DNA of 64,000 nt, from NCBI GenBank assembly GCA_015055805.1, contig SVHN01000007.1, positions 28,221 through 92,220 of the forward strand, written 5' to 3'. This document shows, piece by piece, positions 22,253-23,764 of this stretch. The notes beneath the pieces are model-generated. The model was not told the origin of the DNA. It searched no databases and saw only the letters and a program-made list of their open reading frames with translations. Both the position numbers and the translations under genes were made by a program. Position 1 is the first letter of the stretch; every line of letters starts with the position of its first letter. Source of the stretch: Clostridiales bacterium. Lineage in GTDB: Bacteria; Bacillota; Clostridia; Christensenellales; Borkfalkiaceae.

Positions 22253-22934
22253 TTTTCTTAAACCTCCTTTCAATCACTCTAAGTCCCCAAGTAATAAGTA
22301 GCACGAGTACGAGATAAACTAGCGCAAGCGCAATATACGGCACTAAATACTCGTAAGTCGCGTCACCTATCGCCTTAAACGCCTTAGTTACGTCAACTAC
22401 TGCGATAAAACTTACCACAGAAGTTTCTTTTATTAAAACGATAAACTCGTTTCCAAGAGTGGGCAAAATATTTTTTACCGACTGCGGTATGACGACTTTA
22501 AGCATAGCCGACCAGTAGGTAAGACCTAACGCCCTACCAGCCTCCAACTGCCCAACGTCTACCGATTGAATACCTGCACGCATAATTTCAGAAACGTACG
22601 CGCCTGAATTTAAACCAAAAATAATAATGGCAACCATAACGCCGTCCACTGAAATTCCTAGCGCAGGAAGCAAAACAAAGTAGCCTAAAAGTAGTTGTAC
22701 AACCATAGGCGTTCCGCGGAAAAACCCCACGTAAACGTCGCACACTTTTTCCAAAATTCTTGGCAAACGTTTATACTTAGGCATGATTTTTACAAGCGCG
22801 ATAAGCGTCCCTAAAACTATACCTATTATTAGACCTAAAACGGCTATTTCAATAGTCACTAATAAGCCTTCAAGGGCGGTTTTATAACCGCCCTTCGTGA
22901 TAAATTCTCTGTAAAAAATTTCAAATGAATTCAT
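22236..22934 (-). CDS. Polar amino-acid ABC transporter permease
   Basis: HisM/GlnP family inner-membrane subunit with five or six membrane segments. The N-terminal part includes GGYKTALEGLLVTIEIAVLG, and the EAA loop (QLEAGRALGLTYWSAMLKVV near residue 130) docks on the ATPase. VYVGFFRGTPMVVQLLLGYF is the typical RGTP motif of this family. 232 residues. Its start codon shares one base with the binding-protein stop (TAATG), so translation is coupled. Confidence 0.93.
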   Translation of the reverse strand: MNSFEIFYREFITKGGYKTALEGLLVTIEIAVLGLIIGIVLGTLIALVKIMPKYKRLPRILEKVCDVYVGFFRGTPMVVQLLLGYFVLLPALGISVDGVMVAIIIFGLNSGAYVSEIMRAGIQSVDVGQLEAGRALGLTYWSAMLKVVIPQSVKNILPTLGNEFIVLIKETSVVSFIAVVDVTKAFKAIGDATYEYLVPYIALALVYLVLVLLITWGLRVIERRFKKNERNS

Positions 22935-23764
22935 TATCTATTTGCCTTCAAAACTGCAAGTACGTCTTCGGCCGTTTTGCACTCAGCAAAAGAGTTGTCT
23001 TCTGCAAGAGTAATAACTACTTGCGCTGCGTTGTAGTAAGACGAAGTAAAGTTTACAGACTGTTTACGGGTTTCGTTTACAGTAAGACCTGCCATAGCAA
23101 TATCAATGCCGTTGTTTCCTACGCTGGTTACAACTGAATCAAATTCCATATCTTCAATAACTAATTCTAAGCCTAATTTATCTGCAAGATACTTAGCAAT
23201 TTCCATATCAATACCAGCAAACTTATCGCCTTCTTTATACTCAAACGGTGCAAAGTTTGCATTAGTTGCAACTACGAGTTGGTCTTTATTCGAATCTTTT
23301 TTAGCACTTTCAAACGGTGCGATTCCTTCGCCTGTTGCGTAAGCCTCAAAAATTGCAGCTAACTTTGCCTTGCCTTCTTCAGATGCCAAAATATCGTTAA
23401 CGCTCTTCAAAAGATCAGCTTGGTTTTTGTCAACGCCAAAAGCGTATTCTTCTTCGGTCAACGCGATATCGATAACCTTAATACCTTCGATAGCAGCTTG
23501 AAGGCGGAGTGCAGGATCTCTGTCTACGATAACGTATTCAGAACCACCGTTTTTAAGGTCAGCTACTGCAAGACCAGCGTTTGAATAACCCTTGGCTTTA
23601 TAGCCTTTAATACCTTCAAAACCCCATTCTTCGTCACCATCAACAAAGAACTGACCAGTCGTACCAGACTGAACGCCGATGCTCTTCTTACCGCAAGCGG
23701 TAAAAGAAACACACATAGTTACGCATAAAATTATGGCAACCAAAATAGTTAAAAACTTTTTCAT
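22934..23764 (-). CDS. Amino-acid ABC transporter solute-binding lipoprotein with circularly permuted lobes
   Basis: Secreted binding protein of the amino-acid ABC operon. Signal peptide at 1-23, then lipobox FTAC with lipid-modified C24. The family order is lobe I (VVATNANFAPFEY start, through TVNETRKQSVNFTSSYY) followed by lobe II (IGVQSGTTGQFF, VIVDRDPA, YAFGVDKNQADLLKSVNDIL). Here lobe II comes first (about 28-145), a short linker follows (about 146-160), and lobe I is last (about 161-255). The C-terminal TAEDVLAVLKANR is what would normally lead into IGVQSGTTG. All expected strands and ligand motifs are present once, so this looks like a working permutant, not a fragment. 276 residues. 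Confidence 0.88.
   Translation of the reverse strand: MKKFLTILVAIILCVTMCVSFTACGKKSIGVQSGTTGQFFVDGDEEWGFEGIKGYKAKGYSNAGLAVADLKNGGSEYVIVDRDPALRLQAAIEGIKVIDIALTEEEYAFGVDKNQADLLKSVNDILASEEGKAKLAAIFEAYATGEGIAPFESAKKDSNKDQLVVATNANFAPFEYKEGDKFAGIDMEIAKYLADKLGLELVIEDMEFDSVVTSVGNNGIDIAMAGLTVNETRKQSVNFTSSYYNAAQVVITLAEDNSFAECKTAEDVLAVLKANR

Follow-up and report, generated by a model that had tools for sequence, protein, structure and literature searches.

The gene at positions 22934..23764 (minus strand) of a 64,000-nucleotide stretch of DNA from a Clostridiales bacterium (contig SVHN01000007.1 of assembly GCA_015055805.1; the whole stretch is called the window below) encodes an amino-acid-type binding lipoprotein in an ATP-binding cassette (ABC) importer operon, and the evidence supports its being a natural circular permutant. 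Comparison with its relatives suggests that this protein has likely been rotated many times in evolution and, in some lineages, turned back. Permutation here is probably both recurrent and reversible—that is, Clostridia-type amino-acid receptors would have shifted their chain ends a dozen times or more between four recurring (and two rarer) positions, with several returns to the normal order, with linker scars left behind, within the same operon, and even within one genus.

Reversed lobe order in the window protein

The open reading frame (ORF) lies where a preliminary description of the window had placed it, coding for 276 amino acids from an ATG start with no internal stop, and the lobe II and lobe I motifs named in that description are found at the positions it gave. 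Its signal peptide and lipobox are likewise intact. The gene and its parts are as follows.

22934..23764, minus strand: permuted amino-acid-type solute-binding lipoprotein P0001, type A order, 276 amino acids (ORF; profile and ArgBP alignments)
23693..23764, minus strand: signal peptide up to the lipobox Cys, residues 1-24, lipobox TACG with C24 (sequence)
23486..23683, minus strand: block C1, residues 28-93, opening portion of lobe II, which follows lobe I in normal members (ArgBP alignments, predicted model)
23330..23485, minus strand: block C2, residues 94-145, final strand of lobe II with the return crossing and C-terminal helices, at the chain end in normal members (ArgBP alignments, predicted model)
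23285..23329, minus strand: linker, residues 146-160, connecting the old C-terminus to the old N-terminus (sequence)
22937..23284, minus strand: block N, residues 161-276, lobe I, at the chain start in normal members (SBP_bac_3 and ArgBP alignments)

In the SBP_bac_3 family (PF00497), the normal order is N-C1-C2, with lobe I followed by lobe II and the C-terminal helices, whereas the window protein runs C1-C2-linker-N and is therefore filed as a permuted branch of the family rather than as a standard member. Both lobes are present, as seen from matches of Thermotoga ArgBP (6svf) to both halves and from the predicted model. The linear protein passes the curated SBP_bac_3 cut-off of 26.4 bits, with a best stretch of 92.2 bits (residues 163-258 on profile positions 1-96 of 132), and the rotated protein matches in a single stretch (profile positions 1-129, 99.2 bits). 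With ArgBP, the two halves of the linear protein align in swapped order, residues 160-269 on chain positions 9-117 and residues 27-140 on chain positions 119-224 (69.0 and 23.5 bits per stretch, 93.0 bits in total), and the rotated protein aligns in one stretch on chain positions 12-224 (97.9 bits), bearing out the reversed lobe order first proposed.

The gain in bits from rotation is small—7 for Pfam, 5 for ArgBP, and 1 to 3 for the NCBIfam GlnH and LAO models—because HMMER sums separate stretches; taken alone, the score is a weak test. The comparison of linear and rotated forms against SBP_bac_3, which the preliminary description had put forward as a check, thus succeeded in coverage and gave little in score, and the Pfam score was set aside as a sole test. 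Judged from the sequence, the case for permutation is carried by the reversed order and the full coverage once the chain is rotated, and not by the score. The best PDB sequence match of the linear protein is the GlnPQ tandem SBD1-SBD2 (6h30), because lobe II of one domain there precedes lobe I of the next; GlnPQ, however, has two complete normal domains, and the window protein one rotated domain. Pfam matches to AdoHcyase_NAD (adenosylhomocysteinase) and Lig_chan-Glu_bd were weak and below cut-off, and were rejected.

Structure prediction, also proposed earlier, was confident (predicted local distance difference test, pLDDT, 90), and the model has the normal two-lobe fold, with the new chain ends predicted at the crossing between lobe I and lobe II. 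The terminal segment TAEDVLAVLK, previously read as the inter-lobe strand, is instead a predicted helix (residues 265-274). Foldseek and VIA-align follow chain order and are thus unable to display the rotation; the best whole-chain template modelling (TM) scores from Foldseek were about 0.2-0.5. Residues T35, T36, and D81 are located in block C1, and N168, F208, G226, and R233 in block N. The presumed ligand residues, including R233 and D81, are invariant in a 60-sequence alignment, in which C24 is nearly invariant; from LAO and GlnBP, we take R233 and D81 to be the holders of the amino acid's carboxylate and amino group. Overall, the protein is very probably an SBP_bac_3 lipoprotein in permuted order, with lobe II and the C-terminal helices first and lobe I last, and the predicted receptor of the ABC importer encoded downstream. 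Like normal members, it would close around an amino acid and pass it to the permease, the ligand most likely being a polar amino acid.

Chain orders among the relatives and on the tree

Chain order was assayed with a doubled profile, obtained by writing the type A alignment (the order of the window protein) twice in tandem, the alignment end of each protein being taken as its cut. Classification by alignment start was dropped, since signal peptides align by chance. The homologue lists each hold the best 120 of thousands of matches and the loci were picked by similarity, so that the shares of types given below are not natural frequencies. Among 522 sequences, the rule returned 275 type B, 158 type A, 78 normal, 7 type A2, 2 type E, 1 type D, and 1 unclear. 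By hand, L133 was reassigned from E to A, P0318 from A2 to N-C-N, and L097 from A to a B cut off by a contig end; L237 (two stretches) was taken as a B with an insertion, L120 is probably a truncated A, and L029 and L016|-|208 were unclear and excluded.

Four orders recur: the normal one; type A; type B, cut inside lobe II; and type A2, cut 18 residues before type A, in which C1-C2-N has a lobe I ending 18 residues earlier (L152-L154 and 15 more loci). Two further orders are single cases, namely type D, in which the first strand of lobe I alone has moved to the end (L151, one protein), and type E, cut inside C1, which is the window genome's own second SBP_bac_3 gene (L002 1411-2274, minus strand, contig C10; weak score of 84). 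The order of the window protein was found in 121 of the 121 members of the first list (the query and the best 120 of 7540), and all of the best 120 in a list drawn with a type B protein were type B. The 120 proteins nearest a normal-order relative comprised 38 normal, 75 type B, 6 type A, and one N-C-N, and type B outnumbers type A in these similarity-chosen samples. Within the window's genus (44 genomes searched), the 30 classified ORFs were 8 type A, 10 type B, 11 normal, and 1 split by an insertion.

These counts bear on whether the order is an assembly or annotation error, with a normal gene misjoined in metagenome assembly. The genome is indeed a 20-contig draft, and many of the relatives come from metagenomes. 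However, the gene lies in the interior of its contig (51157-51984 of 92220 bases), the same order recurs in a protein of 95% identity and in a further 119 clusters of the list, and type B occurs in genome records without a metagenome-assembled genome (MAG) label (Thermobacillus xylanilyticus XE, Acetivibrio mesophilus N2K1, and Lachnospiraceae bacterium C6A11), making such an error exceedingly improbable.

Several other observations concern the sampled genes. A third SBP_bac_3 gene of the window genome (L003 2020-2988, minus strand, contig C10; a 322-amino-acid ORF, 26.9 bits at residues 203-287) looks permuted by eye, gave no match to the doubled profile, and was not counted; no normal-order member was seen among this genome's three SBP_bac_3 matches. 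Two type A genes with their operon (L036, L037) are on contigs labelled as Spirochaetales or Spirochaetaceae MAG, owing to transfer or misbinning. In the type B protein P0163 (383 amino acids), the signal peptide and another, inner stretch each show an in-frame repeat; the gene sits on a single 2161-base contig, and the repeats may be an assembly fault.

The orders are intermixed on the tree. A careful tree of 83 rows, with the linker columns excluded and one type B row (L097) truncated, needs 14 order changes, and its starred branches alone force nine changes for the normal order, six for type B, and three for type A. A single clade of all 56 A, B, and D rows was rejected by the approximately unbiased (AU) test (p-AU 9.8e-7), as was a single clade of type A (p-AU 0.0018); thus, of the two questions raised in the preliminary description about the homologues, the permuted form proved common, but type A did not prove monophyletic. 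With 22 congener rows added, 18 changes were needed in 105 rows. A first quick tree of 116 rows, with long outer branches, needed 19; 33 of its rows were dropped for the careful tree, which accordingly lacks the type E row, the normal-order rows lying farthest out, and a small number of A, B, and A2 rows.

Order also differs between close relatives. The normal-order L144 and the type B P0243 are 86, 77, and 89% identical in C1, C2, and N, respectively, the corresponding values being 68, 88, and 92% for P0249 (normal) and L045 (B), and 69, 85, and 84% for P0247 (normal) and P0293 (B). By eye, only 1 of 26 signal-peptide positions differs between L144 and P0243, indicating that the rotation occurred behind the lipobox. 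An alternative origin is a mosaic one, in which halves of two tandem paralogues were joined rather than one gene rotated. Tandem binding-protein genes do exist (L044, G000 C10), and some proteins have blocks with different nearest relatives: in P0257, the C blocks (C1, C2) are nearest type B and the N block nearest type A, and C1 of P0247 is nearest P0230 rather than P0293. The case of P0257 weighs against simple rotation everywhere, and judging by such blocks, some order changes may be mosaics. As a general account, however, a mosaic origin is unlikely, the closest opposite-order pairs (L144/P0243 and P0249/L045) being mutual nearest relatives in all three blocks.

Direction of change and a possible route

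On the tree rooted on normal-order outgroups, the cheapest history of 14 changes includes a single shift of normal to B below the main permuted clade, the normal order being restored seven times, B giving A twice, and B giving D once; a side clade accounts for the other three (two to A2 and one to N-C-N). Change counts alone do not separate gain from loss, which leaves room for a history without returns, in which the permuted lineages each branched on their own from a normal-order stem and the normal order never came back. When returns are forbidden, however, 24 changes are needed instead of 14.

The linkers, judged by eye, bear on the same question. In permuted proteins, C2 is joined to N by a linker such as YFGDGEPEPVTSAVQDSSKDQ, and pieces of it are found on the free ends of 9 of the 11 normal-order rows nested among permuted ones, split at differing points. 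The tails of P0249, P0247, P0260, L143, and L145 correspond to the first half of the linker, the heads of P0257, P0320, and P0305 to its second half, and P0255 has both a tail (ATGVGIKPVTSATKK) and a head (DPSKQ). These pieces resemble the nearest permuted relatives—L045 for the tail of P0249, P0293 for that of P0247, L151 for that of P0260, and L027 for that of L143—and the head of P0257 and both ends of P0255 resemble type A. No linker pieces were seen by eye in the twelve outer normal-order rows. Two points tell against repeated returns: the remaining two nested rows, L144 and P0287, have no clear linker piece by eye, and the linker might itself combine what were once a tail and a head. Such an origin would, however, predict the same split in all lineages, contrary to the differing splits observed. 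From these splits we infer repeated returns to the normal order, and a history without them appears rather doubtful.

A route can be proposed in which the part of the gene behind the lipobox is duplicated head to tail in frame, which would connect the former C-terminus, by way of a linker, with the former N-terminus; if both ends were afterwards trimmed and the signal peptide retained, a new frame with one N and one C part would result. Any cut leaving one full set of parts should still fold, and repetition of the route would move the cut (B to A, B to D) or restore the normal order. The 388-residue P0318, on a single 3474-base contig, has the order N-C-N, as a head-to-tail duplication in frame would be expected to leave, and is thus a putative intermediate; A2 would be the remainder of such a form once the first N is lost.

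Multidomain frames were also observed. L212, a 968-amino-acid frame, carries three binding-domain units (C-N-C-N-C-N, so that the lobe register is ambiguous) followed by a permease domain. A permuted binding domain and a permease share one chain in L202 (A2, 510 amino acids), L204 (A2, 501 amino acids), and L220 (B, 524 amino acids), and L206 (537 amino acids) may be a further fusion. Permutation by duplication and end trimming would fit P0318, L212, and these fusions.

The importer is kept whatever the order of the receptor. Of the ORFs tested, all 12 of type A and 61 of the 68 of type B have both a permease and an ATPase gene after them (the remainder lacking one or both genes, with neither seen at two contig ends), as do 8 of 8 loci that include normal, B, D, and A2 receptors. 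In the window, the operon comprises the following further features.

23820..23848, minus strand: sigma-70-type promoter TTGACA-17-TATAAT, consensus match 12/12 (promoter scan)
23770..23774, minus strand: ribosome-binding site AGGAG, ATG 5 bases downstream (sequence)
22236..22934, minus strand: importer permease, BPD_transp_1 (domain search)
21392..22252, minus strand: importer ATPase, GlnQ-like (domain search; inner ATG taken as the start, the listed ORF starting at TTG 22273)

This agrees with the importer operon behind a consensus promoter described previously, with four promoter-like sites observed in the window at a looser threshold versus 3.4 expected by chance. The permease ATG overlaps the stop codon of the binding-protein gene by one base, and the permease matches HEQRo_perm_3TM above the cut-off of that model; the ATPase scores below the GlnQ equivalog cut-off. 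A degenerate relic, still made but no longer binding or serving the importer, is very unlikely, as it is opposed by the open frame, the lipobox, the invariant presumed ligand residues, the consensus promoter, the translational coupling to the permease, and the retention of the operon at 12 of 12 type A loci.

The ATPase has a basic insertion between its Q-loop and signature (spacing of 83 residues). This spacing is 65-93 in 38 measured relatives (of 40 printed) and 49 in four other loci, and the insertion is common to type A and type B operons. The divergent gene at 23942-24463 (plus strand) encodes a small Amidase_6 protein; a promoter-like TTGTCA-18-TATAAT at 23942-23971 overlaps its listed TTG start, which makes the ATG at 23978 the more probable start.

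Known permuted binding proteins and significance

With other SBP_bac_3 proteins (Thermotoga ArgBP 6svf/4prs, GlnH, LAO), the window protein shares both lobes, the presumed ligand residues, a lipobox or signal peptide, and an operon with a HisM/GlnP-type permease and a GlnQ-type ATPase; it differs in that its chain is rotated, the old C- and N-termini being joined by a linker of about 15 residues. Betaine-binding proteins differ by domain rearrangement. Glycine-betaine-binding proteins (OpuAC, ProX) form a circular-permutation family detected from structure (CPSARST) at less than 24% identity, and thus likewise show permutation among bilobed binding proteins, but the parts of that report consulted describe no repeated switching (PMC2395249). 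The window protein has no Pfam match to any betaine family.

A naturally permuted binding lipoprotein has also been solved: TpMglB-2 (Tp0684; "Type Ic / Cluster Bc") binds glucose, with bound-ligand and closure data, and has relatives in Gram-positive gut bacteria (PMC4990184, as consulted in part). Unlike the window protein, which by Pfam is SBP_bac_3 (with the weaker matches given above), it has a sugar-binding Type I / cluster B fold; one permuted order is described for it in the portions seen, and no homology to the window protein was found at the level tested. Its authors proposed that permutation is an adaptation to anchoring (PMC4990184, in part). Applied here, rotation would have placed the lipid anchor, or an end available for permease fusion, more favourably on the receptor, and the permuted forms fused to a permease (L202, L204, L220) would be in keeping with this. 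However, normal-order receptors are also anchored and fused (GlnPQ, from the title of 6h30), the order changes go in both directions, and most permuted members here are separate lipoproteins; an adaptive origin is thus a tentative possibility, on the unlikely side.

The preliminary description knew of no natural permutant of this family. None was found in print for SBP_bac_3 in the open-licence papers searched, nor was recurrent, reversible permutation of any family found there; in the part available, PMC7683729 refers to engineered permutation. Permuted binding proteins as such are already known, the two classes above having been described (PMC4990184, PMC2395249, both in part), and what holds as new within the open-licence papers searched is permutation within SBP_bac_3, which is probably recurrent and reversible.

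Circular permutation is usually taken to be rare and one-way, and is deduced by comparing distant proteins. In this family, order differs even between close relatives, with identities per block of up to about 85-90%, and a putative N-C-N intermediate and scars are present; the path, neutrality, and reversibility of permutation thereby become testable questions. Domain databases and annotation read such permuted receptors as partial matches. For protein engineers, the family offers natural cut points in a fold used for amino-acid sensors.
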